A DNA stretch of 64,000 nt from Trachythela sp. YZ-2020 (Eukaryota; Cnidaria; Anthozoa; Malacalcyonacea; Clavulariidae). The stretch lies in contig JADLSH010000143.1 in the NCBI GenBank assembly GCA_016169945.1, forward strand, positions 62,001 to 126,000, in the 5' to 3' direction. The translations under genes and the position numbers were made by a program. The notes under the pieces were generated by a model. The model had not been told where the DNA came from, searched no databases, and saw only the letters and a list, made by a program, of their open reading frames with translations. Every line of letters starts with the position of its first letter. The stretch's first letter is position 1. Positions 3,446 through 49,200 of the stretch are shown piece after piece.

Positions 3446-5683
3446 CTACCCATCCAACTGATATTTCTTTTTAAGTTCGTCCGTACGTGACCCAGAAGGT
3501 TTCACCTTTTTGGACATCAAAGGCGTACGCCGGCGTTTTTTCTTCTTATCTTTGGTGCTAACCGGTTCATAGTCTTTATTGCGAGGCATCTTACAGAAGA
3601 AAATGTACAATACCAACAAAATTACAATCAAAAGTAGAAAGAGAGCACAGCTAAGAAGAACGTAGACTAAAACAGCCTCTTTTTCTGGCTTGTCACAATC
3701 TCCATAATACCAATCATCCTCTTTGCATTTGTTACGCTGGTTGCGCAATTCCTCTGGGAGGCAGGATTTTTGAGAAAAACACCAAGCACATTTCATGTGC
3801 TCCGAGCAGTTCTGGCAAGATGAACCATACGCGCTACAGTCCACACTTGTCACTGGCGATGCCGTTGTCGTTGACGGGTCAACTATAAGAATAAATTATG
3901 ATAAAAGTAAAATTTTATCTGAGCAATTTTCCTTCATATCTCGAACGTGGAGATCCAATGTAGCAATGTAGGTAGTGTTCAATAATTCATCTTGAATGTG
4001 TGGTTCCCTGCAATGTCGGTAGCGATAAACGATATTCTTTGAAGGACCAACTACCTGAAACGCCCTTCGTCTGGAAGTTAGTACTGCTTTACTAGTAATG
4101 ACTTCCAGACGAAGGTCCTTCGCTCGAAACGTCGAAATTCTTGTTATATTTTTCAAGTAGTTTGATTCTACAAAACCTCAAGTCTATCTTTTATCGCTAT
4201 ACCTAGACTGGAACCACGTCCACGTATTCAAGTTTTATTTTTACTCAGACTTTTCAGTAAACACTCGAACATTCCAGTATATTGTATAGCATGTGCATGA
4301 ACTCGGTTAAGTAAGGGCATTCAGGCATGACCTGATGACCGCATAAATTTAGTTGAGTGAACAGAATTAAATTGACGAATGGCATTAAAAAACTTATTGT
4401 GGTCATCAAATATCGATACATCTGCAATAATAGATATTTGACATGCAAAATGGTAGAGTTATCGAAATGATATACAGGTATAGTAATGTACAGTAAAATG
4501 CATAGTAATATAGTATCTCGCTCTGCATACCTGAAAATCAGGAATGCCCTCATTTTGAGCACTCGAGTTAAGGGTGTGTTTTTAGGACCTCAAGATAATA
4601 TTAGAATGAAATATGCAAATATAGATACGTGTTGGAGAAACAGTGGTTAATGCTTCAATTCTTGCAATCAAGCCAACATGCAAACTGCTGATTATAATTC
4701 AATTATAATTCATTATAATTCATCAATAAATCACATACAATCTGCACAATTTTTTGCTTGTGCAAAATCACACATTTTCGGTCGAACTTGCCTGCGTCCT
4801 CTCAAGTACCACACATGCATAAGCGATAAGATGAAGTCTATTTGACATTGAAGCGACAAAGATGAAGGGTGGAACAATATACGTATAGATCTGGTTTCAA
4901 TGAAGCCAAGATTTTATACCATCGCATAAGATCTCAACGAACAACTCAGTCAAGAATTACAACCTAACAGTTGATAACAGTTGAACCTGCATACCATAAC
5001 TATACATGCAGACCACAATGTACGGTTATGTAGTCCCTTTACAAAGTACACGGTATATAACCTAGACATATCAAACAAGTCAGTGTCTATCATTGTCTAT
5101 CATGGATATTTGATACTTCTATATTTGCCAATGGCCATGCCTTATATACAATTACGAAAGTACGAATGTAGATCTGGCTTAAGTGGTTAGCCTTATATCA
5201 TCTAGAAGCTTTGATTTTTAAGGTTGATACTTTGATGCAATCACCAACTTTGATGCAATCGTCACAGAGTCAGAGCGGTTTTCTATATACTGAAACTTTT
5301 AATCAAATAATACCGCAGTCGGTAAATATACCAGAAGGTAGAATCATAAAGATAGTACATTGTGAATAAAGATCATACTTCGTTCTTATAAGCCTTATTT
5401 GACCTAGCAGTTTTGACAATTAAGTTCCTTAGCAAATATACTTTAATACAATCACCAAATAATTATCACACAACGGCTTGCTGTACAGGTATACTTTCAA
5501 AGAGTCGGAATACTTACCAGTCGTTTGTGTAGACTCCGTTGTCGTTGACTTGGTCGAGGACTTGGTAGCATTTGGCTGTAAAATATTGGGCACTGCGAGG
5601 CAAAATCCAATAGATATATACACTAGAACACACACTACAACAACATCGAAATGCCGTAACGGCAACAATCCGTAGCAACTCAT
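3446..5683 (-). CDS. PTTG1IP-like single-pass membrane protein
   Basis: Two coding exons on the minus strand: 5518-5683 and 3446-3882. The junction is GT-AG and in frame, giving about 200 residues. The first ATG with a sensible signal peptide is at 5683; longer frames start at GTG. Order: a signal peptide of about 30 residues; a Thr/Ser-rich linker; a Cys-rich PSI-like module with Cys pairs and a C-A-W-C motif (about residues 72-105); one membrane helix; and a basic cytosolic tail containing a Lys/Arg run and ending in K-K-Y-Q-L-D-G. PTTG1IP (PBF) has the same order of signal, PSI, membrane helix and charged tail with a K-K-Y near its end. The resemblance is architectural plus short motifs, so the family is likely and strict orthology less so. 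The 1.6-kb intron carries a foldback element at 4049-4163. Confidence 0.7.
4049..4163. mobile_element. Hairpin-plus-tail foldback element, diverged copy (intronic)
   Basis: Terminal inverted sequence AACTACCTGAAA / TTTCAAGTAGTTT encloses a second inverted pair built on CTTCGTCTGGAAGT and its complement, plus the family core TCGAAACGTCGAA. The same modules occur at 7149-7351, 15595-15722, 25826-25925 and 50057-50221. This copy is diverged at both ends and its tail is poorly preserved. Confidence 0.7.
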
Positions 5684-7133: not shown

Positions 7134-7148
7134 TTAAGTTTGTGATAA

Positions 7149-7351
7149 AGATTCGCCGGTTGACTGTTGTGTAAAGCTACCTGAAAAATACAATAGAACT
7201 TCGACGTTTCGAGCAGAGGCCCTTCGTCTGGAAGTTAGTAGAAGGGCCTTTGCTCGAAACGTCGAAGTTCTTATTGTATTTTTCAGATAGTTTTACACAA
7301 CAGTCAACCGCCGAATCTTTGCTACACTCTACCCACACTGGCACCGCACGT
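7149..7351. mobile_element. Hairpin-plus-tail foldback element with 15-bp target duplication
   Basis: Long inverted repeat starting CGCCGGTTGACTGTTGTG and closing with its complement near 7316, containing the core CTTCGACGTTTCGAGC and CTTCGTCTGGAAGT, followed by a non-palindromic tail ending CACTGGCACCGCACG. Flanks are TTAAGTTTGTGATAA (7134-7148) and TTAAGTTTGTAATAA (7352-7366), a 15-bp target duplication with one mismatch. It is inserted in a CAACTTGT-type repeat. Confidence 0.8.
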
Positions 7352-7624: not shown

Positions 7625-8990
7625 CTTTGATCCACTATATTATTCAAACTAATTCAACCCCTGCTGAGGCCAAATTGTTATCTTCTAAGAATATGCTCAT
7701 AAATTACAACAATTTTGCTTTATCATTCAAGTAGTTGTTGTAGCAAAACATCAAACCTATAGTTTGGATTCGTTTTCGTTGCTGGAGAAACTCAAAGCAT
7801 AGCTTGATTTTGTAGAATGACGAGGGAACAAAGGCAAAGCCCGACCACGTCTACAATGTTAATATACCAAGACGATATGGAATTTATCAGAAAATCAGTT
7901 TTAAGCTACCAAAACATTGAGACAGGGGGAGATTTGTTCGGCTTATGGCAAACCGAAAGTGAGGTTGTTGTTCAACTTGTCACAGGGCCTGGCGAAAATT
8001 GTCGTCGTACCCCAACAGCGTTCTTCCAAGATCAAACATATCTCAGTCAAGTTGGTAAATATCTAACAACCGCGAAAGGCTTGTGCAATATCGGCGAGTG
8101 GCATTCACATCATCGCCTCAATTTACCCCAACCTAGTCATGGAGATATGTCTACAGTGTGGAGAAATATGCCGGGCTGTGGATTAAAGCGGTTTTTACTC
8201 ATAATTGCAACGATTACACCAAGAGGACAGGTTAATATAAACGGGTTCATGTTTACAGCGCCTGTAAACGGAAGTCAAAATGGTGAAATGTTCCGTGTTC
8301 AAACTCGGGTTCTCACCGGACCGAATCCGTTCCGAAATCAGTCCGACGTTTTGGCGAAGTTGCGCGCGGGTGCGGAGTCGGCACTGAGCATCCCACCGGT
8401 ACCCGTATTAGAACATTCTGAAATCGACGAAACGCCGAATATGGGAGAGCAAAAGTTAAGAAATGGCCCTTCCCGGATTGCATTTAAGCTAAATAAGTCA
8501 AAGTTCAAGAAAAGAAAAGCAAACAAGCAAAGCAAGCAAGGTAAAGGAAAGGAAAAGCATGTTCAGGCTGTTCAGCCAACTGACGGATCGAAAAAGGGCA
8601 AAAGGAAATTCGGGATATTTTGGAAAAGGAAGGGAAAGTATTATACACTACAGGCAGATAACAGTGAAACACCGGGAAAATTTTCTCAGAGTCTGGTTGC
8701 TGACGAAAGCTATCGAAATGTCAATAATGTAGAGGTCAATTATCATGGTCACGCAACACAACACGAGCAATTACCGCAGCAAAGACGTGAACATGACGAA
8801 GTTAGATCCAATCAACCACCAGCAGATCGCTCAGTGGTTCAGAAGCCACAAAACACTACCCATCAGTTGACCTCGAACGTTTGAGGGGGTGATATATTAT
8901 TACTATTGTATTTAATCTTACTTAACCAGGATACCAACATTATGCGAATGCGTTTTTCAGAAGTGTCTTCCAATTAGAAATTACATTGGT
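7625..8990 (+). repeat. Duplication unit A1
   Basis: Near-identical to 9453-10830. Similarity begins with CTTTGATCCACTATATTATT, about 190 bp upstream of the ATG, runs through the gene, and extends past the stop through shared 3' sequence ending near TTACATTGGTACCT. Flanking DNA travelled with the coding region, so this is a tandem DNA duplication and not a retrocopy. Confidence 0.85.
7817..8884 (+). CDS. JAB/JAMM-domain protein A1, putative active isopeptidase
   Basis: Single-exon frame of 355 residues with ATG at 7817; GATTTTGTAG just upstream could be the acceptor of a 5' UTR intron. The N-terminal 180 residues form a JAB (MPN+) domain: E-T-G-G at 35-38 supplies the JAMM glutamate, and G-E-W-H-S-H at 93-98 followed by S107 and D110 completes the E / HxH / SxxD zinc site. 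The spacing between HxH and SxxD is 8, one more than in Rpn11-type enzymes and more like prokaryotic-style JAB proteins. From about 220 the chain is Lys-rich and low complexity (several basic clusters, possible nuclear signal), then polar to the end. JAMM enzymes cleave isopeptide or peptide bonds next to ubiquitin-like modifiers; the substrate here is unknown. It lies 750 bp upstream of its near-copy A2, and the degenerate paralogues B1 and B2 follow on the same strand. AATAAA at 9184 is a plausible poly(A) signal. Confidence 0.85.
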   Translation: MTREQRQSPTTSTMLIYQDDMEFIRKSVLSYQNIETGGDLFGLWQTESEVVVQLVTGPGENCRRTPTAFFQDQTYLSQVGKYLTTAKGLCNIGEWHSHHRLNLPQPSHGDMSTVWRNMPGCGLKRFLLIIATITPRGQVNINGFMFTAPVNGSQNGEMFRVQTRVLTGPNPFRNQSDVLAKLRAGAESALSIPPVPVLEHSEIDETPNMGEQKLRNGPSRIAFKLNKSKFKKRKANKQSKQGKGKEKHVQAVQPTDGSKKGKRKFGIFWKRKGKYYTLQADNSETPGKFSQSLVADESYRNVNNVEVNYHGHATQHEQLPQQRREHDEVRSNQPPADRSVVQKPQNTTHQLTSNV

Positions 8991-9452
8991 ACCTTAAAGA
9001 TATATCATGCACATGTAATTACTTGCACTATTAAGTTATTAACACTATCATATCTAATCAGTACACACACCTTGTCAATTGGTTTGAAGAAATGCACTGA
9101 TATATCACTTTAAAATACATTTATATTTGAGTCTATATATATCATAAGTTGCAACTGTTGTGTAAATGTCAGCCAATAGTTATAATAAATAATGAGTGTT
9201 GTGGTTGATCATCTCCTTTTTTGCATTCAATGAAGTTAAGGCATGTTCAACCAGTTCGATTAATACGTGTTCTCCACATTGTTCAAGTTGAGCAAAAATT
9301 ATTTTCAGTGTTCTTATAAAATCTTGTCTGTTTGTAACCCAAATTAAATTGCCGATACAGAGTGCATGTGCATAGCTAATCGGCTTGTTGACTCAACTGC
9401 TGTGATAACCAGTTCGTTGCAGACGTGCGACAACTATGTATAGTATGCCTGC
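8885..9452. other. A1-A2 spacer
   Basis: The 3' flank of A1. Its segment around 9070-9200 (TCAATTGGTTTGAAGA and following, with AATAAA) recurs downstream of A2 (about 10955-11070) and again upstream of B2 (about 13715-13850). It is therefore an A-gene 3' flank that was copied repeatedly. Confidence 0.7.
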
Positions 9453-9635
9453 CTTTGATCCACTATATTATTCAAACTAATTCAACCCCTGCTGAGGCCA
9501 AATTGTTATCTTCTAAGAATATGCTCATAAATTACAACAATTTTTCTTTATCAAATATTTGTTGTAGCAAAACATCAAACCCAAAGTTTCGAATTCATTT
9601 TCATTGCTGGAGAAAGTATAGCTTGATTTTGTAGA

Positions 9636-10370
9636 ATGACGAGGGAAGCAAGGCAAAGCCCTATTACAATGTTAATATACCAAGACGATATGGAATTTAT
9701 CAGAAAATCAGCTTTAAACTACCAAAACATTGAGACGGGGGGAGATTTGTTCGGCTTATGGCAAACCGAAAGTGAGGTTGTTGTTCAACTTGTCACAGGG
9801 CCTGGCGAAAATTGTCGTCGTACCCCAACAGCGTTCTTCCAAGATGAAACATATCTCAGTCAAGTTGGTAACTATCTAACAACCGCGAAAGGCTTGTGCA
9901 ATATCGGCGAGTGGCATTCACATCATCGCCTCAATTTACCCCAACCTAGTCATGGAGATATGGCTACAGTGTGGAGAAATATGCCGGGCTGTGGATTAAA
10001 GCGGTTTTTACTCATAATTGCAACGATTACACCAAGAGGACAGGTTAATATAAACGGGTTCATGTTTACAGCGCCTGTAAACGGAAGTCAAAATGGTGAA
10101 ATGTTCCGTGTTCAAACTCGGTTTCTCACCGGACCGAATCCGTTCCGAAATCAGTCCGACGTTTTGGCGACGTTGCGCGCGGGTGCGGAGTCGGCACTGA
10201 GCATCCCACCGGTACCTGTATTAGAACATTCTGAAATCGACGAAACGCCGAATATGGGAAAGCAAAAGTTGAGAGATGGCCCTTCCCGGAGTGCATTTAA
10301 GCGAAAAATGTCAAAAAAGTTCAAGAAAAGCAAAGCAAACAAGCAAAGCAAGCAAGATAAAGGAAAATAA
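9636..10370 (+). CDS. JAB/JAMM-domain protein A2, tail truncated by nonsense codon
   Basis: Tandem paralogue of A1; 244 residues from ATG 9636 to TAA 10368-10370. The JAB domain is intact: E-T-G-G, then G-E-W-H-S-H with the downstream S and D, all shifted three to four positions by a short N-terminal deletion. The stop lies in the Lys-rich region where A1 has GAA. The same frame then stays open for 107 more codons to TGA at 10692-10694 and matches the A1 tail. A2 may thus be a functional short isoform, a recent nonsense allele or a readthrough product. Because the catalytic domain is preserved with mostly conservative changes, I treat it as a gene and not a dead pseudogene. AATAAA at 11061 is a plausible poly(A) signal. 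Confidence 0.8.
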   Translation: MTREARQSPITMLIYQDDMEFIRKSALNYQNIETGGDLFGLWQTESEVVVQLVTGPGENCRRTPTAFFQDETYLSQVGNYLTTAKGLCNIGEWHSHHRLNLPQPSHGDMATVWRNMPGCGLKRFLLIIATITPRGQVNINGFMFTAPVNGSQNGEMFRVQTRFLTGPNPFRNQSDVLATLRAGAESALSIPPVPVLEHSEIDETPNMGKQKLRDGPSRSAFKRKMSKKFKKSKANKQSKQDKGK

Positions 10371-10694
10371 AAGCTTGTTCAGCCAACTGCGGGATCGAAA
10401 AAGGGCAAAACGAAATTCCGGATATTTGGGAGAAGGAAGGGAGAGTATTGTCCACTACAGGCAGATAACGGTGCAATACCGGAAATTGTTTCTCGGAGTC
10501 TAGTTCCTGACGAAAGCTATCGAAATGTCAATAATGTAGAGGTGAATTATCCTGGTCATGGTCACACAACAGAATACGAGCAACCACAGCAAAGAAGTGA
10601 ACATGGCGAAGATAGATCCAATCAACCACCATGTTCTCCAGCACGTAGCTCATTGTCTCAGAAACCATCCCATAAAGCCAACACCTATATATGA
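10371..10694 (+). pseudogene. Detached but open C-terminal tail of A2
   Basis: In frame with A2 after its TAA. It encodes the counterpart of the polar A1 tail with no further stop until 10692-10694. Over about 107 codons of otherwise drifting sequence this argues that the nonsense change is recent or that the tail is still selected. Confidence 0.7.
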
Positions 10695-11564
10695 TGACCA
10701 CGAGAGTTTGAGGGGGTGATAGACTGTATATATTATTACTATTGGATTTAATCTTACTTAACCAGGATACCAACATTATGCGCATGCGTTTTTCAGTAGC
10801 GTCTTCCAATTATAAATTACACTGGTACCTAAAGTATATGCACATATAATGTGCATTATTAACATAATATCTCTATATCACATCGCCTTGCATCGCCTTG
10901 TACAATATATATTTACTGTGTAATACTGTACTTATAGATATACTTAATACTTACTATATATAGTCAATTGGTTTGAAGACTTTGAACTAAAGTGCACTGA
11001 TATACAAACCTTACACATTTATATTGCATGCAACTGCTGTAAATGTCAGTCAGTATTTATAATAAAAATTAAATATTGTTTGCATTCAGTGACAACACTA
11101 TAGAAATGTCTGTGACCACAATGATGTCATGGCAAACGAGACGACATCTCTTACATCTCTACATTTACAAGAAGGGTACAAAACATTGTAGGAGTCTTTC
11201 CTGTTTGTAACCCAATTTTGCCAGTACTGACATTATACAGTCTGTGCATAGCCTAGGACTAGAATTATTTCAGGTACTGAGTTATTTCAGGTATTTCATT
11301 GCCAGAATTATTTGCTACAGCCTATAGTTTGCTGTGACAGTGTAAGTAGGTATGTCTATAACCTATATACAATAATGAAACCACTTTATATAGTGAAAGT
11401 TGCTTTGCCATGATTTCTTCCGCTTGGTGTAACCACATGCTGTGCGAATTCTGCGAAAACAATATGCAGATTAGGTAGTTGCGTCATATGTCAACATTTA
11501 ACTGCGTTTTATCAATGTATTGAGTGGACAGACAACTTTCATAATACGTGCACAGCTACTGGAT

Positions 11565-13256
11565 ATGGATAAGTTGGGCAACATGGCTGGCATACCACAT
11601 ATCTACAGCCCTTTGCTGTACATTTTCGAAGGCGAGTTAATACGTATTGGCGAGTTTATTAAGCAAATTCGCTATGTGTCAGTTCTGACCGGCTATGGTA
11701 AATTATATGGCTTGTATACACACAGTCGCAGTGCTGTTGTGCATGTTACCACATTGAAAAAACTCAACCAAAATCGATTGCAGCATGCCTTGTCTAGCAG
11801 GCTCGAAGCTACGCGAAACGAATACAGTTTAAGCTTATTAGGCGAATGGTTTGCGGTCCAAAATCTAGGTTCGAACATTTCAGTCCGCGACCTTTTGAAA
11901 AAGAAAGCTTATACATTACGTGAAAATGAAACTTATGTTTGCATCGTTGTTGAAAAACTACAAACTACATTTGATTTCGAGGACATGAGTAATCACACCC
12001 AGGCATTCTTCTTAGCGAAAGGTAAAACCTACAAGATGGATATAAAAATTGTGAGACGAGAAAGCCCGTTCCGATTTGACTATGATTTTACAGAAAGGAT
12101 TTCGTCCGCCGGGTATGTTGGTAATTCAGGTGTGAAGTATAATGGTATTGAAAACGAAGGGTTACGTTTGAACGGATTTGAAAATGTTGGAACTGAATTG
12201 GAAGATATGTCTAAGAAACCGAAACCGGATGTTGCGCCATCTGATTCCGAGAATCCACTTGACCATGATGAGAAGGGACTTCCGGAATTGCAAAATGAAA
12301 GCAGAAATAAGGAAAGCAAAGATAAGTTGGAGAGGATTAAGGAAGATAGCGCTGTTGTGAAAGCTACGCCAGTTTTGCCAACGGAAGAAGTTTTGATTCA
12401 AGCCGCTTTTACAGAAGACAAGGGGAATACAATTAAGAACAAAGATGATGTTGAGACTCTAGACAAGAAAGAAATGGGTTTTGTACCTGAAGAAGATTCG
12501 ACAAGAGATGGTGAAGCTTGGGTGGAAATTAAGCAAAGCGATATTCTGAACACTAAACCAGTTTTGCCAACGGAAGAACCTCCTAATGACGCCATGTTTA
12601 CAGAAACCGAAAAGGATAAAATTGATAACAAAGAAAAAGCTGACAGTCTAGATGGTAAACAAGGAGAAACAGGTTTTGACAGTTCTGTACCTGAAATAAA
12701 TTCCACAATTGAAAATGAAGATAACATCGCTTGCGGTGGAGCTCGACAACTTAATGAAATTGTCAACAAAGAAAGTGAGGGTGTTAAGTCGGAAGATAAC
12801 GAAGTCTCGAATGAAGAAAGTTTGGCAATTGAAGAAGATTCTGCAGCAAGCACAGTTTTACCAGCGGAAGAAAGGAAGATATTGGGGAATGAAGGTAGTC
12901 TTAGAGAAGGTCAACAGGAAGTGAATTGTATACCGGCGAAAAATTCCACCAAAGAGAAAATTGAAACTGTAGACGGTCACGTGGCAGAAAGATCTCAAGA
13001 AACCGAAAATACTAGAAGCAAAGAAAATAAGTCGGATGAGTTAAAAATAGCCAATGAAAACATTTTGTCAACAGAAGAATCTTTCAACAACACTTCAGCA
13101 ACAGAAGTTACGAACAAGACAAGCGAAGATGCTACTGACAAAGGACAGGAAAATACGGCTTCTTCATCTGTTGGAAGTTCCGATAAAGATACTGAAAGTG
13201 GAAACATGAAAGAAATTGGTCATATGAACACTGACCTTGAAATCGAACTGGATTGA
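11565..13256 (+). CDS. JAB-like pseudoenzyme B1 with long acidic tail
   Basis: 563 residues. The first ATG is 11565; the frame runs upstream to a TTG only. No standard family is obvious, but the N-terminal 180 residues line up with A1: E-F-I near 30-32 (A1 22-24), a TGYG-x-L-Y-G-L-Y stretch (A1 TGG-x-L-F-G-L-W), V-V-x-x-V-T, and G-E-W at 93-95, the same numbers as in A1. The catalytic residues are gone: the Glu is Leu41, HxH is F96-A-V98, while the S106-x-x-D109 pair survives. I infer a catalytically dead JAB/MPN-type domain. Residues 200-563 are Glu/Lys/Ser-rich, probably disordered, with two diverged repeats around V-L-P-T-E-E. Pseudo-JAB subunits typically scaffold active JAB partners, and A1/A2 are the obvious candidates. 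AATAAA overlaps the stop codon. Confidence 0.75.
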   Translation: MDKLGNMAGIPHIYSPLLYIFEGELIRIGEFIKQIRYVSVLTGYGKLYGLYTHSRSAVVHVTTLKKLNQNRLQHALSSRLEATRNEYSLSLLGEWFAVQNLGSNISVRDLLKKKAYTLRENETYVCIVVEKLQTTFDFEDMSNHTQAFFLAKGKTYKMDIKIVRRESPFRFDYDFTERISSAGYVGNSGVKYNGIENEGLRLNGFENVGTELEDMSKKPKPDVAPSDSENPLDHDEKGLPELQNESRNKESKDKLERIKEDSAVVKATPVLPTEEVLIQAAFTEDKGNTIKNKDDVETLDKKEMGFVPEEDSTRDGEAWVEIKQSDILNTKPVLPTEEPPNDAMFTETEKDKIDNKEKADSLDGKQGETGFDSSVPEINSTIENEDNIACGGARQLNEIVNKESEGVKSEDNEVSNEESLAIEEDSAASTVLPAEERKILGNEGSLREGQQEVNCIPAKNSTKEKIETVDGHVAERSQETENTRSKENKSDELKIANENILSTEESFNNTSATEVTNKTSEDATDKGQENTASSSVGSSDKDTESGNMKEIGHMNTDLEIELD

Positions 13257-13523
13257 ATAAATGAAGCAGATATTAAAACTTCTAACGTATTTATATGGTA
13301 CATTATTGGTACATACTTATTGCTTGAGCACGTTTGATTTAAGACGTTTGATGTATTTCATATTTAGTATTCATGTAATAGTAAATTATATACTTTTGTA
13401 AATATAGAGGAATAATTTTGAGGAACGGCCGCTCGAAAACAGTTCGTTTATAACTGATTGGGTCACCGTTGTAACTTTTTAAAATAATAATAATAATTAC
13501 ATCATCTTCTCCTGCACTCTCTA
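13257..13523. other. B1 3' flank
   Basis: AT-rich sequence almost identical to the B2 3' flank except that it lacks the 128-bp foldback insertion. It therefore represents the empty site for that element (TATTTCATATTTA near 13353). Confidence 0.75.
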
Positions 13524-13660
13524 TTAACTTCTATTATACACCCATGTTCTATTTATACACCCATGTTCTATTTATACAGCTGTAATCTGGTTCTAAATGG
13601 TCATATGCAGCCTCCAAAACTCCGCGAATGTTGCGTGGACACCACGTGGACACCACGTCC
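13524..13660 (-). pseudogene. Fragment of LicD-like gene 3' end
   Basis: On the minus strand this repeats the terminal codons and TAA of the LicD-like gene at 15896-16010, with two short internal tandem duplications, and then stops at the junction with unit B2. It is a passenger that marks the right end of the B duplication. Confidence 0.85.
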
Positions 13661-14370
13661 ATATATTTACTGTGTAATACTGTAACCTATAGATATACTT
13701 AATATTTACTATATATAGTCAATTGGTTTGAAGACTTTGAACTAAAGTGCACTGATATACTCACCTTACACATTTATATTGCATGCAATGCGTACATCGT
13801 AAGTTGGAACTGCTGTAAATGTCAGCCAATATTTATAATAAAAATTAAATATTGTTTGCATTCAGTGACAACACTATAGAAATGTCTGTGACCACAATGG
13901 CGTCATGGCAAACGAGACGACATCTCTTACATCTCTACATTTTTCAAGATGGGTACAAAACATTGTCAGTGTTCTTAATTAACTCTTTCCTGTTTGTAAC
14001 CCAAATTTGCCAGTACTGACATTATACAGTCTGTGCATAGCCTAGGACTAGAATTACTTCAGCGAGTTATTTCAGGTACTGAGTTATTTCAGGTACTGAG
14101 TTATTTGCTACAGCCTATAGTTTGCTGCGACAGTGTAAGTAGGTATGTCTATAACCTTATACAATAATGAAACCACTTTATATAGTGAAAGTTGCTTTGC
14201 CATGATTTCTTCCACTTGGTGTAACCACATGCTGTGCGAATTCTTCGAAAACAATATGCAGATTAGGTAGTTGCGTCATATGTCAACATTTAACTGCGTT
14301 TTATCAATGTATTGAGTGGACAGCCAACTTTCATAATACGTGCCTGTTATACCAAACACAGCTACTGGAT

Positions 14371-15456
14371 ATGGATAAGTTGGGCAACATGGCTGGCATA
14401 CCACATATCTACAGCCCTTTGCTGTACATTTTCGAAGGCGAGTTAATACGTATTGGCGAGTTTATTAAGCACGTTCGCTATGTGTCGGTTCTGACCGGCT
14501 ATGGTAAATTATATGGCTTGTATTCACACAGTCGCGATGCTGTTGTGCATGTTACCACATTGAAAAAACTCAACCAATATCAATTGCAGCATGCCTTGTC
14601 TAGCAGGCTCGAAGCTACACGAAACGAATACGGTTTAAGCTTGTTAGGCGAATGGTTTGCGGTCCAAAATCTAGGTACGAACATTTCAGTCCGCGACCTT
14701 TTGAAAAAGAAAGCTTATACATTACGTGAAAATGAAACTTATGTTTGCATCGTTGTTGAAAAGCTACAAACTACATTTGATTTCGAGGACATCAGTAATC
14801 ACACCCAGGCATTCTTCTTAGCGAAAGGTAAGACCTACAAGATGGATATGAAAATTGTGAGACGAGAAAGCCCGTTCCGATTTGACTATGATTTTACAGA
14901 AAGTATTTCGTCCGCCGGGTATGTTGGTAATTCAGATGTGAAGTGTAATAGTATTGAAAACGAAGGGTTACGTTTAAACGCACTTGAAAATGTTGGAACT
15001 GAATTGAAAGATAGCGAAGTCTCGAATGAAGAAAGTTTGGCAATTGAAGAAGATTCTGCAGGAAGCACAGTGTTACCAGAGGAAGAAAGGAAGGTATTGG
15101 GGAATGAAGGTAGTCTTAGAGAAGGTCAACAGGAAGTGAATTGTTTACCGGCGAAGAATTCCACCAAAGAAGAGAAAATTGAAACTGTAGACGGTCACGT
15201 GGCAGAAAAATCTCAAGAAACCGAAAATACTAGAAGCAAAGAAAATAAGTCGGATGAGTTAAAAATAGCCAATGAAAACATTTTGTCAACAGAAGAATCT
15301 TTCAACAACACTTCAGCAATAGAAGTTACGAACAAGATAAGTGAAGATGCTACTGACAAAGGACAGGAAAATACGGCTTCTTCATCTGTTGGAAGTTCCG
15401 ATAAAGATACTGAAAGTGGAAACATGAAAGAAATTGGTCATATGAAGCAGTACTGA
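14371..15456 (+). CDS. JAB-like pseudoenzyme B2, short-tailed copy
   Basis: 361 residues from ATG 14371. The N-terminal domain is nearly identical to B1 (TGYG-x-L-Y-G-L-Y, G-E-W-F-A-V, S-V-R-D), so it is the same presumed pseudo-JAB domain. The acidic tail lacks 197 codons relative to B1. The deletion joins two GAAGATA direct repeats of B1 (near 12200 and 12791) and keeps frame. A small indel at the end replaces the B1 C-terminus (N-T-D-L-E-I-E-L-D) with K-Q-Y. The frame is otherwise intact and substitutions are sparse, which suggests a recent duplication with both copies still coding. Same orientation as A1, A2 and B1. Confidence 0.75.
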   Translation: MDKLGNMAGIPHIYSPLLYIFEGELIRIGEFIKHVRYVSVLTGYGKLYGLYSHSRDAVVHVTTLKKLNQYQLQHALSSRLEATRNEYGLSLLGEWFAVQNLGTNISVRDLLKKKAYTLRENETYVCIVVEKLQTTFDFEDISNHTQAFFLAKGKTYKMDMKIVRRESPFRFDYDFTESISSAGYVGNSDVKCNSIENEGLRLNALENVGTELKDSEVSNEESLAIEEDSAGSTVLPEEERKVLGNEGSLREGQQEVNCLPAKNSTKEEKIETVDGHVAEKSQETENTRSKENKSDELKIANENILSTEESFNNTSAIEVTNKISEDATDKGQENTASSSVGSSDKDTESGNMKEIGHMKQY

Positions 15457-15594
15457 CCTTGAAATCGAACTGGATTGAATAAATGAAGCAGATACTAAAA
15501 CATTCTAGCGTATTATGGATTTATTGTACATTATTGGTACATACTTATTGCTTGAGCACGTTTGATTTAAGACGTTTGATGTATTTCATATTTA

Positions 15595-15722
15595 CGGCGT
15601 TTGACTGTTGCCGGTAAAACTACCTGAAAATACAATCTCATTGTATTTTTCAGGTAGTTTTACACAACAGTCAACCGCCGTATTTGCTATACTCTACCCA
15701 CACTGGCACCGCACGTTCGAGA
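15595..15722. mobile_element. Hairpin-plus-tail foldback element with 13-bp target duplication
   Basis: Inserted in the B2 3' flank. TATTTCATATTTA is duplicated at 15582-15594 and 15723-15735, while the paralogous B1 flank has the site once. The element is a near-perfect hairpin (AACTACCTGAAAATACAAT and complement) plus the family tail CACTGGCACCGCACG. It is shorter than other copies, lacking the central core. Confidence 0.85.
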
Positions 15723-15895
15723 TATTTCATATTTAGTATTCATGTAATAGTAAATTATATACTTTTGTAAATATAGAGGAATAATTTTGAGGAACGGCCG
15801 CTTGAAAACAGTTCGTTTATAACTGATTGGGTCACCGTTGTAAAATATTTTTAAAATAATAATAATAATTACAGCATCTTCTCCTGCACTCTCTA

Positions 15896-16848
15896 TTAAC
15901 TTCTATTATACACCCATGTTCTATTTATACAGCTATAATCTGGTTCTAAATGGTCATATGCAGCCTCCAAAACTCCGCGAATATTGCGTGGACACCACGT
16001 TTTCACGTCCATAAACACGCATTCTTTAAAAGGAAAAAAATCTTTCATTTTGTAATTCGTTTCCATATCCAGATCTCGTACTTTCTGCTTCTCTCGATAA
16101 ACAACATAGGGAAAGATGTCTAAATGATGAAAGCCATGAATTACTCTAGCCATTGGACTGACAAATGAACAGCTATCGATTTGCTCGTGAACGACCTTGA
16201 AATTGAAAAGTTCTGATCATATTCTAGGTCGGGATTAAGACGATTAAAATCAAATCATAGGACTAGGATAGGGGATTAAGGTTTGATCAATTTTTGAACT
16301 GGATAATCCAAGCAGACCCACTCCTTCCTACTCACCTGGCCTATGCAACTCAACCGTCTTCTATCGTCTTCTTCCCTTTGCTCGAAATCTTTCTGTACAA
16401 CAAAATGAAACTTATCATCGTCTCCTTGTTTGAAATTCCGCTTTCCTCCAAACGCTTTGAGTGCCTTAAACCTTCTAATGTCGACCAAGACATCGACGTC
16501 TTCATCCCAAGGTATAATGTATCCGTCTCTATATTGACCCAGGAGAGAGCCACAGCCAATGACATAAGGAATTTTGTGAAATCTCGACATGATATGCCAT
16601 TGAGACAATAACGCTGCAAACGTTTCTCTGTTGTTGTTGGCGCGGCATCTGTTACTTGGCAATGGAAAAACTGTAATTAACCCGCTGCTGTTCGACAATG
16701 TAAACGGTTCTATTGTCCAGCTTTGGCTGAAATTTGAAATGTTTTCGATATAATCTTTCACTGCGAAACCGTATAACCGAAATACAAACAACCACAAACA
16801 GACAATTGCTGTGAAACCGATCACAAATCTTCGCCAAAGCATCGACAT
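15896..16848 (-). CDS. LicD/fukutin-family nucleotidyl- or phosphotransferase-like protein
   Basis: Two minus-strand exons, 16336-16848 and 15896-16183, joined in frame to about 266 residues. The donor is GTGAGT after a Cys-Ile-Gly-Gln; the acceptor was chosen because it is the only nearby AG that keeps frame. Order: short cytosolic N-terminus; one membrane anchor (about 8-28), so a type II Golgi-style protein; then the LicD signature G-S-L-L-G-Q-Y-R-D-G followed by I-P-W-D-E-D-V-D-V (about 117-137), the Asp-rich metal/nucleotide site shared with bacterial LicD, FKTN and FKRP; and a C-terminal block with F-x-D-x-x-x-W-C-P-R-N resembling the FKRP/fukutin end. In animals such proteins modify glycans (for example ribitol-phosphate addition to dystroglycan); the exact acceptor here is unknown. 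Its 3' end overlaps the B2 duplication. Confidence 0.8.
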
Positions 16849-32575: not shown

Positions 32576-35925
<3,350 letters not shown>

Positions 35926-43200: not shown

Positions 43201-46200
43201 GGTTGTGACTGGAAGCTGGTCATGGAGCCCGGCTTCCATAGGTTATATTAAAATATTTAATCATATTTATATGAGGTTATATTATTATACAGTATCTTAT
43301 TTTAGGACTGCGCGCGGTGGCACATCTTTGGCAGGAATTTGTGTTAGAAATGAGGTATCGTTGGGACCGTGGAATTTTAATATCAAGGTAAGTACATTTC
43401 ATTCGGACTTAAATAGCGAAGATTGTTTTAGTCCCCCGTTTAACTCCAATAACTTTATGTTTCACAGACTTGAAGTAGAGGCGCCGAATCTTGATTGCTG
43501 TTTAATTCATCAGAAATTACAGGTATAATATCATTTCGAAACTTTTAGTGTATGATAATTCTGACACTGCAAAGTACAATGAAAAATTCCTCACTTGCGT
43601 CTTCGGGATTCCGTTCCGAAAGCTATTGAGACTAGGGGAATAAGATTCAAGTTTTATCCACTTAAGTGTGCGAAATATCTTCGTGATAAATTTACTCTAC
43701 GCTTAATAGTCTGGAATCCTTGAAATTGTGAGTTCAATTCCTGCTCGCGACAATGATTCTTCCGTTCTCTTCATTGTTAGAACGATGGCCTCAGTGTCTA
43801 TTATTCCGATTACCGAGGCCTCTCGTCTCCGGTTATTTCCCCCTCACTAAAAACTAACCTTAGTCCTTAGGTGTCGAGCACTTCTATCATGAATTTGGTA
43901 ATCACACTCTGTGTAAACTGAGCTTCAACTTCTTTTCTTAGATGTTAAACTGCTGTATAGCTCGAAAGTGTTTATCAAAGCGAAGTCAGACTAGCATTAA
44001 TCAAGAAATATCCGAGAAACATTTACAACCCAACAATCCAGAGCGACCAGCAAGTGCAAGATCTAGGAATTCCTGTCCTGGTGATGACAGCAGTGAGGAT
44101 GAATTTTTCGAAGCATTAGAAGATCAAGACGATTCTGATGATTCCGGTGGGGATGTAGATGGACCTTTAGAGACAATACAGAGTAATAGTAGACGAGAGG
44201 GGGCATTAAAACGATGTAGGGATCTTAGACTGTTGGTATCTGGGGAACCTTTGTATATACCAGTAACACAGGTAGGCGAATTTGTGTGTATTTATTGATA
44301 ATTTAATATTTCATTAAAATGTCTGAATGGTATTTAGAAGCGCAACTATAAGACGAAAACTTGAACATGTTTCCTTGACAAGTCCTCGTAACAGCTTGGG
44401 AAAACCAGGAAAGATTTGTCAGTAATATTTGCCTGCAGAGTAAATTACTTCTGAGTAAATTGCTCTTACAACACCACTACAGTGTCTACTCCTTTGTCCA
44501 TTCCTTTACGTTCGACAAAACGTCAAATCGGCCAGACAAATCGCAATGTGAAAATGTAGCATTGAATATTTTGCAGGAACCCGCTCCAATGACAGAAGAC
44601 ATGTTACAAGCACATGCTGATATTCTTACGCAACTTGGCACGACCGAGGAAGGTGCCAGAATCCGAGCTCAAATGCAGAGTGCTTCTTTACTTTCCGACA
44701 TGGAGGCGTTCAAGGTAATAATAGTTATAGGATAGTAGGGAGTATTGGCCCGATGTACATACTAAAGACGACATGGAGGCGTTCAAGGTAATAATAGTTA
44801 TAGGATAGTAGGGAGATATTGGCCCGATCTACATACTAAAGACGACATGGAGGCGTTCAAGGTAATAATAGTTATAGGATAGTAGGGAGATATTGGCCCG
44901 ATGTACATACTAAAGACGACATGGAGGCGTTCAAGGTAATAATAGTTATAGGATAGTAGGGAGTATTGGCCCGATGTACATACTAAAGACGACGAACTTG
45001 GCCAAAGAAGATGTAGCTCGTCTGATAATTCGTTCTGTGTATAAACGCGACAAACAAGTTTAGGCGTCAAGACGAACAAATATCTGCGTTGTACGTCTAC
45101 TCAGACGAGTATACGTGCGTAGTTTCTCTTGACGAATAATAGGGAGCTTTATCAATGACTACGAGTACGACTACGAGTACGAGATTCGTCATTTTCGCGC
45201 CAAACGCCGTGTTGTTTGTATACGTCATCTCGCAAAAGTCGTAGTCGTTGGGCTTTTGACTACGAGATTTTTGATAAATCTCGTACTCAAAAGCCCGACG
45301 ACTACGACTTTTGCGAGATGGCGTATGCAAACAACACGCGAAAATGACGAATCTCGTACTCGTAGTCACTGCTAAAGCTCCCTAATACATCCATGACTCC
45401 ATGGCATGAGTATAAACACTCTGTGATAGCAATGATAAATATTGTTTCAAAACTTGTTCAATTTTCCTTGTTAAAATGTACAATTCTAATATTTTTTCCA
45501 TATTGGTGCTTTCCTAGGCCGCCAACCCAGGTTGTTTATTGGAAGATTTCGTCCGTTGGTATTCACCAAATGACTGGCTACAAGGCGAGGAAACTGAGGA
45601 CGAGATTGAATATAGAAGAAAATTGGAAAGCGAACAAATGCAGAAAGGTACTGACGTTACTTGTGCTTGCATTGTTTCCAAATCTTGATATGATCAAGCT
45701 GTGTGGGTAGCTCCTGTGAGCTTACGCATTGTAACAGATTGTGACACCATATCGCCACCACATACCATACCATACCATACCATACCATACCATACCATAC
45801 CATACCATACCATACCATACCATACCATACCATACCACATATCATACCATACCATACCATAGCGTTGCTTTCCTATATTACTAGCAAGTTTACATATTTT
45901 AGCATACTGTAGCATAGCTTACGATACAATATTTAGGCATTCCATATCACATTATGTCATACTATACTGTTCATACTAAAGTATATACATGTCTTGCAGA
46001 GGAAGAGCAAACAGATGGAGAAACAGAGGACTGGGGTACAGATGACGAAGAAATTACGGAGGAAGAATTGAATGAAGCTTTCTGTAAAGACGATAAGCAA
46101 AGTGAAAAGTTACGTGACCGGTTACCATGTTCAAAGGTCGGTTAATGCTTTGTGGTACTCTTTTTTGTGAGAAAGTATCATTCTTACATGTCCTCTCTAT

Positions 46201-49200
46201 CATTCTTACGTGTCTTCTCTATCATTCTTACATGTCTTCTCTATCATTCTTACATGTCTTCTCTATCATTCTTACATGTCCTCTCTATCATTCTTACATG
46301 TCCTCTCTATCATTCTTACATGTCCTCTCTATCATTCTTACATGTCCTCTCTATCATTCTTACATGTCCTCTCTATCATTCTTACATGTCCTCTCTATAA
46401 TTCTTACATGTCCTCTCTATCATTCTTACATGTCCTCTCTATCATTCTTACATGTCCTCTCTATCATTCTTACATGTCTTCTCTATCATTCTTACATGTC
46501 TTCTCTATCATTCTTACATGTCCTCTCTATCATTCTTACATGTCCTCTCTATCATTCTTACATGTCCTCTCTATCATTCTTACATGTCCTCTCTATCATT
46601 CTTACATGTCCTCTCTATCATTCTTACATGTCCTCTCTATCATTCTTACATGTCCTCTCTATCATTCTTACATGTCCTCTCTATCACTCTTACATGTCCT
46701 CTCTATCATTCTTACATGTCCTCTCTATCATTCTTACATGTCTTCTCTATCATTCTTACATGTCCTCTCTATCATTCTTACGTGTCTTCTCTATCATTCT
46801 TACATGTCCTCTCTATCATTCTTACATGTCCTCTCTATCATTCTTACATGTCCTCTCTATCATTCTTACATGTCCTCTCTATCATTCTTACATGTCCTCT
46901 CTATCATTCTTACATGTCCTCTCTATCACTCTTACATGTCTTCTCTATCATTCTTACATATCTTCTCTATCATTCTTACATGTCCTCTCTATCATTCTTA
47001 CATGTCCTCTCTATCATTCTTACGTGTCTCCTCTATCATTCTTACATATCTTCTCTATCATTCTTACATGTCCTCTCTATCATTCTTACATGTCCTCTCT
47101 ATCATTCTTACATGTCCTCTCTATCATTCTTACATGTCCTCTCTATCATTCTTACATGTCCTCTCTATCATTCTTACATGTCTTCTCTATCATTCTTACA
47201 TGTCCTCTCTATCATTCTTACATGTCTTCTCTATCATTCTTACATGTCCTCTCTATCATTCTTACATGTCCTCTCTATCATTCTTACATGTCCTCTCTAT
47301 CATTCTTACATGTCCTCTCTATCATTCTTACATGTCCTCTCTAGTTCGTTTCTACCCGATGTGGGTCTTATTTGGGGGTTTTATGAACATATTGACTTGA
47401 ATGACGTAAAGTTGAATAGAGTTCAATAGATTTGCCTAGGTGTGTCTGGTGACAAGTTTGATATCAGGTTCACTTGTGTTCAGGATTGGTGTGAAGAGGG
47501 AAGACTAAGTCTGCGCATGCGTGTACCAGGCAACATGTGGGAAGAAAATTGGCACAATGCCAGAGCACGTCCTGTACGTCGCCAGAAACGATTGTTTGAT
47601 GAAACAAAAGAGGCTGAAAAGGTATTGTCAGGTTTTCTGACTTGTTTGTCTGTCGCCCCCCCTACCCTCCTCCCCTCCCTCCTCTACCCTCCTCCTCCCC
47701 TCCCTCCTCCCGTCCTACCCTACCCTCCTCTTTGCTAAGACAGGGCACTGTAAAACACGCGTCCTGATCAAGTGGCGCACCATGTAAATCCATCGCTGGA
47801 ATTCAGAAATGAATAATACTGTATCATATTTGGCTACTTTAACTATAGCCTATACTTGGAGGCTTCTTATGTAAGTTTATATACTATATAAGAGCCCCGG
47901 TGGTGATACCGAAGTGGAACTTTTGCTTGTTTTGTTGTTTTACTGTCATTATCTGTGACATGTTTTCCTATATTCCAGGTTCTTCATTATCTATCTGGGT
48001 TACGTCCAGCTAAAGTTTCTACTGGACTTCTCTCTAGTGTACTTCAAGCATCTATACAGCGCATAGAAGACGAAGGTCTGTATGAAATACGCGAGTATTA
48101 GACCAGCGACCAGTTTACATTACCCATCTATAACACAGACATCATCAGACAGATTAGAACTGAAAATATCTTGCTTTTTTGTGTTTAGACGGCAGTGACT
48201 CTGTTCGTTCAAGTGCTGTTATTGATCGTGTTATAAAAAGAGCAAGTCGAATATTTGACACGTCAGAGGAACAGCTCACGTTATATAAGGTAAGATAATT
48301 TAGCAACTTTTTGCAAGAACAATTCTATTGGACCCACAGTGCATGGTTAGAACAGATGACCAATAGTATCATTTTTCTGTAGGATTTATTCCAAGAACTT
48401 CGCAGTATTGAATTAAAGATTGCGCGGGCGCAGTCGTTAAAGTTCAAGCTTCGGATATCTGAACGCGATGATTCAAAGTCAGACATCGATACAGAGGCTT
48501 TCATTGCGTCATTATTGGAGAAACCGGAAGTCAACGTTGTCGGAGCAAGTCGTGGACCTATGGGTCATGTGATCAAGAACATGTTCTCCAAACAAGAGGT
48601 AATGCCACTGTAGAGCTACTGTACCTACTGAATTTTATGAGCCATTAGTTTGAAGCAATAATATTTATCTGTAACTCACTACAGTCACTAGCTCAGATAA
48701 CCACGGTATAGTTCAGGTAATGAGGTCTATTTTATGTTTTAGATATTGAGGGCACAAGAACAAGATTATGATAATCATGAAATTGTCAAGGTAGAAATTC
48801 CAGTAAATGAACATCTATTACCCATTTTCCAAACCATTATCTATTGCATCTTCTTTGTGGTTTGATAATGAATTATTGATGGTAGCCGAAGTTTAACCCG
48901 ATAAACGTGCTTGGTTTAATGGGCTAGTAAATTGCCTGGTAAATATTTAATAAAGACTGGTAGATGTTTACTGAATGGCTGGACACTAACCCATATGAAT
49001 CATTTTGAGATTGGTTGATTATACCAATACAATACACCACTCATAATCCATATTTTGTTCTATAGAAACCTGTTACTAACCAATCAAGACCGTTTCCCGC
49101 CCCAGCCGGTCGTGAGTTTATTCTGCGAACAATAGCGAACTATCCAGGCAAGAACTCAAGGCCATGTCCTGAGCGTATGTACTGTGTACTTGCTGGAGAG

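Follow-up and report, generated by a model that had tools for sequence, protein, structure and literature searches.

A tandem cluster of bacterial-type JAMM proteases and putative JAB-like pseudoenzymes in the octocoral Trachythela sp.

The locus described here lies in a 64,000-nucleotide stretch of the Trachythela sp. YZ-2020 genome (contig JADLSH010000143.1, positions 62,001 to 126,000), which is called the window and within which all coordinates are counted. Four genes on the plus strand follow one another in the order A1, A2, B1, B2 (Table 1). The first-pass annotation had described them as two genes with a full E/HxH/SxxD site followed on the same strand by two genes with N-terminal domains that align with them but have no metal ligands. 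This description was borne out: the four open reading frames (ORFs) are present, the catalytic residues are complete in A1 and A2, and each of the 16 aligned B domains has other residues in place of the E, both H, the S and the D, with the S and D positions falling in a gapped stretch.

Table 1. Genes and duplication units of the A-B cluster.
Feature	Position	Strand	Description
A1	7817-8884	+	uninterrupted ORF, 355 amino acids (aa); bacterial-type JAMM/JAB domain at about residues 10-190, catalytic residues complete; lysine-rich tail ending in -TSNV
A2	9636-10370	+	uninterrupted ORF, 244 aa; recent copy of A1 (93% identity), JAMM domain intact
B1	11565 (ATG)-13256	+	uninterrupted ORF; JAB/MPN-like pseudoenzyme domain at about residues 10-190, ligands all lost; long acidic tail ending in -EIELD
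B2	14371-15456	+	uninterrupted ORF, 361 aa; recent copy of B1 (92% identity), shorter tail
A duplication unit, copy 1	7625-9048	+	88.8% identity to 9453-10876
A duplication unit, copy 2	9453-10876	+	
B duplication unit, copy 1	10907-13647	+	right end, 13553-13647, repeats 15906-16000
B duplication unit, copy 2	13661-16000	+	three blocks, 90-95% identity

In A1 and A2 the catalytic glutamate (within IETGGDLFG), the HSH motif and the SxxD motif (HSHHRLNLPQPSHGD) are all present. The same catalytic E, HxH, S and D occur in 120 of 120 listed A homologues, these being the matches listed out of 270 found. When the JAB/MPN fold was tested in this analysis A was found to have it, and in structure comparison A superposed on entries of the signalosome and of Rpn8-Rpn11. 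A1 and A2 are predicted to be zinc-dependent JAMM isopeptidases. The canonical JAMM motif is EXnHS/THX7SXXD, with a 7-residue spacing, as described in PMC300881, and this exact spacing is absent from A1 and A2. Eight residues separate HxH from S in A, in 120 of 120 listed homologues and in 48 of 49 bacterial ORFs, and the x8 spacing reads as the signature of a subfamily. The Pfam Prok-JAB model matched A1 and A2 with expect values (E) of 7e-5 and 4e-5, just below the cut-off of the model. It was the sole JAB model listed, and the eukaryotic JAB model of Pfam matched neither protein at E values up to 5. A2 additionally gave a weak match to the Pfam model ACTMAP-like_C (E 0.21). To judge from its sequence, A is a JAB protein of bacterial type and not of the Rpn11, CSN5 or BRCC36 type.

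The nearest named relatives of A come from Paramuricea clavata (P0003), Dendronephthya gigantea (P0010 and others) and Xenia (P0022), and those of B from D. gigantea (P0125) and P. clavata (P0128). No named match outside octocorals was obtained for B, which has 13 relatives among 5.8 billion proteins, or for A among the 120 matches listed. A literature search over titles and the beginnings of abstracts, covering few subscription papers, returned no title on these coral genes. Scanning of bacterial and archaeal genomes with A gave 96 relatives, with 80 loci kept and identity up to 45%, in Bacteroidota, Cyanobacteria, Fibrobacterota and other taxa; bacterial JABs are the closest A relatives identified outside octocorals. 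An A relative with 40% identity was also observed at 5001-5282 of a contig from a viral collection (L081), and viral contigs yielded no B relative. In a quick tree search on 85 chosen rows, a single branch (99, starred) separated the A rows (67 of 122) from the 18 bacterial rows. Addition of B rows lowered the support for the split between bacterial and other rows from 99 to 78/85. The simplest reading is that A was acquired from bacteria by horizontal transfer.

Gene neighbours were counted at 51 of the 80 bacterial loci, and a JAB ORF was obtained from 49 of these. Up to four ORFs away from it in each direction, an ORF of the E1/ThiF cluster was found in 44 of 49 cases and one of the E2 cluster in 34 of 49, the cluster names being taken from scans of two loci; in these two loci no ubiquitin-like gene was recognised. 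Between E2 and E1, loci L003 (6371-6568) and L005 (6405-6614) carry an ORF of 65-69 aa with a common ending (QLVFDPxTGxxVV...QDGF/EDGF) and no Pfam match, which might be a modifier or cofactor of that E1-E2-JAB system.

The E1-E2 context and a match of A2 to the JAB model of the phage-defence library PADLOC (E 1.5e-17) are the only hints toward an immune or anti-parasite module, in which a captured defence-type JAB would strip ubiquitin-like tags during infection and B would act as regulator or decoy. Such a role would also fit a family that has multiplied locally, several A relatives lying on contigs of identical size, three of them from Dendronephthya. A also matches the 6A and Cap3 profiles, but weakly: the 6A-MBL cap2_3 profile gave 33.3 and 34.7 bits, far below its cut-off of 320 and confined to the profile end (544-647 of 665), and the CBASS Cap3 profile gave 21.9 and 23 bits against a curated cut-off of 200. 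In the 14 window ORFs of at least 130 aa, no gene for an E1, an E2 or a ubiquitin-like protein was noticed; six ORFs outside A and B were scanned with Pfam, and intron-split genes would escape. We consider an immune module improbable.

B1 and B2 gave nothing in Pfam or NCBIfam beyond a chance-level Tropomyosin match (B2, E 3.8), and B2 matched no sequence in PADLOC or PDB. Profile-profile comparison was used for the relation of B to JAB/MPN domains that the first-pass annotation had proposed, and it upheld that relation. With six B sequences, hhalign aligned A and B over 156 columns (probability 82.6, E 9.6e-6); with 16 B domains, a set that leaves out the too short match of P0133, a collinear match of 173 columns was obtained (probability 93.8, E 2.8e-8, the E value for one comparison). 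Against a JAB hidden Markov model (HMM), six of six B sequences (E 1.7e-5 to 0.047) outranked 2000 shuffles, the best of which reached 0.53. The unrelated N-terminal domain of a bacterial E1, run as a control, matched neither A (0.82) nor B (0.13), and a derivation of B from that domain was rejected on these values. A low-confidence model of B, built without A sequences, had JAB/MPN entries as its best structural matches, the matched chains being ones that we take to be MPN subunits. The superposition of B on entries containing MPN subunits was poorer than that of A. The computation supports B1 and B2 as carriers of a divergent JAB/MPN-related domain without ligands, probably homologous to A. 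That B has another fold and resembles A by chance would agree with the lack of meaningful Pfam, NCBIfam, PADLOC and PDB sequence matches, with the low confidence of the model and with a probability of 22 for an animal-only profile. Set against the long collinear match, the shuffles, the JAB/MPN matches of the model and the silent control, it is very improbable.

Decay of B as a pseudogene was likewise rejected, complete domains being found in 14 proteins with a mean B identity of 54% over 7 pairs. Conservation in B peaks at residues 45-60; the first strand-helix is also well conserved, and the idea that the first helix forms a single conserved patch was dropped because residues 45-60 are more conserved. 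This stretch, for example in the B2 ORF (14371-15456), includes a histidine-containing hairpin, with LYTHSHGAVVH in several members; A has no histidines there.

Persistence of the A-B linkage in other genomes, a check proposed in the first-pass annotation, was assessed indirectly, from identical contig sizes. For 8 of the 13 B relatives, the longest contig is identical in base count to a contig of an A-family protein, whereas with sizes jittered by 20% such matches averaged 0.047 and never exceeded 2 over 20000 draws. The matched contigs include one of 11944 bases from Paramuricea, one of 12438 bases, and one of 1195357 bases from Dendronephthya with close locus numbers (LOC114531539 and LOC114531541). 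Since about 0.05 matches were expected, A-B linkage seems to be kept in other octocorals; identity of contig size is strong, if indirect, evidence that two genes share a contig. Seven of the eight A partners belong to the same A clade as A1, a clade of 28 rows (support 86) adjoining one of four rows (97, starred), three of which have a strict CaaX end. The eighth, P0092, shares a contig size with the B protein P0121; this match may be due to chance, because the contig is short (2380 bases) and P0092 lies in a different A clade. Across A1/B1 and six matched pairs, the A and B identities were correlated (r 0.916, with 4 of 5040 relabellings as high), as predicted by shared descent; two of these seven pairs are near-duplicates, and P0121/P0092 and P0133/P0005 were left out. 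B evolves faster than A, with a mean identity of 54% against 72% in the same seven pairs. The lineage-specific linked pair proposed in the first-pass annotation is supported by the octocoral matches and strengthened by the probably kept linkage. It is corrected in one respect, in that A does not look like the eukaryotic type with which it had been compared.

The varied ends of the A family and the opposite charges of the A and B tails are new in this analysis. The end of A1, -TSNV, resembles a class I PDZ ligand. Such an end occurs in 23 of the top 25 A relatives (shuffle mean 0.64, max 5), the pattern and the top-25 set having been chosen after the ends were seen; within the A family, it is the B-linked clade that carries class I PDZ patterns. 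A strict CaaX end was found in 19 of the 120 listed A relatives (shuffle mean 0.55, max 5), a count that includes P0052, in which the motif lies inside a hydrophobic segment. A strongly hydrophobic tail segment occurs in 14 of the 120, and 61 show none of the four tail patterns. Among the paralogues P0027-P0120 many CaaX ends (CCSLM, CPFCVIV, CPICIML), hydrophobic segments or cysteine clusters were observed. These motifs would allow prenylation and PDZ binding, and the A-family paralogues may form a family of membrane-anchored deubiquitinases. In the B-linked clade 27 of 27 A tails are basic, and 12 of 12 B tails are acidic (the count omits P0121, P0122, P0133 and those A rows whose tails are shorter than 30 residues); the B tails are also partly repetitive.

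The same tails could be read in another way, in which B is tied to A by ancestry alone: it would have arisen beside A, lost catalysis and taken up a separate scaffold or ubiquitin-binding role with no A-B complex, in the way that MPN domains in EMC8/9 or Prp8 took such separate roles. The acidic, partly repetitive B tails look scaffold-like, and B is strongly diverged as well as faster evolving. When B was placed in the A tree its stem measured 8.67 changes per column, and a grouping of B with the linked A clade was not rejected by the approximately unbiased test (p-AU 0.444). A local origin would not by itself predict that a specific A clade is linked with B in several octocorals, nor the opposite tail charges, a point tempered by the basic tails that are frequent in A elsewhere. 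We regard ancestry alone as unlikely, though less so than the alternatives above.

The A-A-B-B order is the product of two separate tandem duplications; each A copy has a duplicated 5' flank of its own. An assembly duplicate of one haplotype was rejected, as a copied A-B whole would read A-B-A-B and the unit ends are separate. The repeat at the right ends of the two B units (Table 1) probably belongs to the 3' part of the LicD-family gene that follows on the minus strand, the LicD match lying on ORF 16276-16848 beyond the cluster; ORF 15896-16153 had no Pfam match. In A2 an in-frame stop cuts the tail, and beyond it the frame is open up to -ANTYI. In B2 the -EIELD ending, found in B1 as in P0127 and P0128, has been removed by a small indel just before the stop. 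Both A2 and B2 resemble copies shortened at the C terminus. Values of dN/dS, the ratio of nonsynonymous to synonymous change, between the recent copies ranged from 0.70 to 1.22 and are uninformative because changes are few. An inverted-repeat element with related arms was seen upstream of A1 (7147-7320) and in the 3' flank of B2 (15594-15713), and is absent from the matching B1 flank; this suggests a small mobile element that arrived once B had been duplicated. Elsewhere in the window, an ORF for a rhodopsin-family 7-transmembrane receptor (54-2207; PF00001, E 5e-24) lies upstream of the cluster. The ORF at 32576-33079 has a zinc-finger-like start and no Pfam match, and presumably resembles the N-terminal region of a HIF prolyl hydroxylase. 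A long repeat array at 46127-47429, with units of about 20 codons open in several frames (SFLHVLSIILTCPLYHSYMS), shows strong GC and AT skew.

The favoured reading, to which we give a probability of about 0.55, is that A and B make up an MPN+/MPN- isopeptidase pair that evolved independently, has its origin in a bacterial-type JAB and is located at membranes or the cell cortex. Computation supports the catalytic site and fold of A, the homology of B and its loss of ligands, the tail motifs and tail charges and, indirectly, the linkage; horizontal origin, catalytic activity, an A-B heterodimer, its localisation and its substrate we infer. An octocoral ancestor would have acquired a bacterial-type JAB and then expanded the A family, B pseudoenzymes being kept beside A, and most likely an A protein (MPN+) joins with a B protein (MPN-). 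Assembly may be helped by the acidic tail of B and the basic tail of A. The C-terminal PDZ ligand of A would bring both to PDZ scaffolds located at membranes or the cell cortex, and there the pair could remove ubiquitin or a ubiquitin-like tag from local substrates such as receptors. As described in PMC4579573, BRCC36 in BRISC is brought into an active conformation by its MPN- partner, and helix alpha-1 is the element around which the MPN domains pair. By analogy, the B domain would most likely support, position or restrain the A active site.

The match of B weakened with animal-only profiles, hhalign without bacterial rows giving a probability of 22 (E 1.9e-4) and the animal-only JAB HMM E values of 6.5e-4 to 1.2 for B, with 1.9 for the best shuffle. 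Basic tails also occur in 56 of 74 other A rows, though their charge is weaker (median 0.044 against 0.088 per residue). No B was found with a contig matching that of the Xenia A, and the conservation peak of B at residues 45-60 does not suit a simple copy of the BRISC geometry.

If A is of bacterial type, any A-B pairing would have arisen independently of the eukaryotic pairs. The fuller proposal is that octocorals arrived anew at an MPN+/MPN- deubiquitinase heterodimer, starting from a bacterial JAB that they had captured, as a PDZ-anchored isopeptidase with a dedicated, genetically linked allosteric pseudoenzyme, within a wider JAMM family in which many members are fixed to membranes by prenylation or transmembrane segments. 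We hold this tentatively, at somewhat less than even odds. The known MPN+/MPN- pairs of the proteasome, signalosome and BRISC are old, and for this reason the origin of an inactive partner for an active JAMM is hard to study. A younger, lineage-limited and gene-linked pair, independent of these ancient ones, would make partner acquisition testable and might reveal how an enzyme and its inactive partner come together. At the same time it would be an example of an animal taking in a protease from the bacterial ubiquitin system and providing it with targeting signals of eukaryotic kind.

Like BRCC36-Abraxas/KIAA0157, Rpn11-Rpn8 and CSN5-CSN6, the A/B set combines an active-type JAMM with a fold-related partner without metal ligands. 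It differs from these pairs in that A is of the Prok-JAB type with the motif HxHx8SxxD, the A and B genes are adjacent, named matches are from octocorals only, A has a PDZ-ligand-like end and B an acidic tail. BilC and Cap3 are the JABs of ISG15-like and CBASS systems. A Bil deconjugase would stand in an operon with E1, E2 and a ubiquitin-like protein. The bacterial relatives of A mostly have E1/E2 neighbours, with no ubiquitin-like gene recognised in the two loci scanned, and no gene of these kinds was noticed beside the coral genes. The bacterial JABs of E1/E2 operons, as described by Iyer et al. 2006 (PMC1779556), are like A in identity and in the x8 motif. Their genes mostly stand beside E1/E2 and their proteins extend into another C-terminal part, whereas coral A lies beside a pseudoenzyme gene and has tails that are basic, PDZ-ligand-like or of membrane type. 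AMSH and AMSH-LP, as described in PMC9313428, are animal JAMM enzymes recruited to membranes, as the coral A family may be; a PDB sequence search with A2 returned no AMSH at E values up to 1. AMSH is recruited through MIT and SH3-binding regions, whereas the coral family would rely on lipid motifs, hydrophobic segments or PDZ-ligand patterns.

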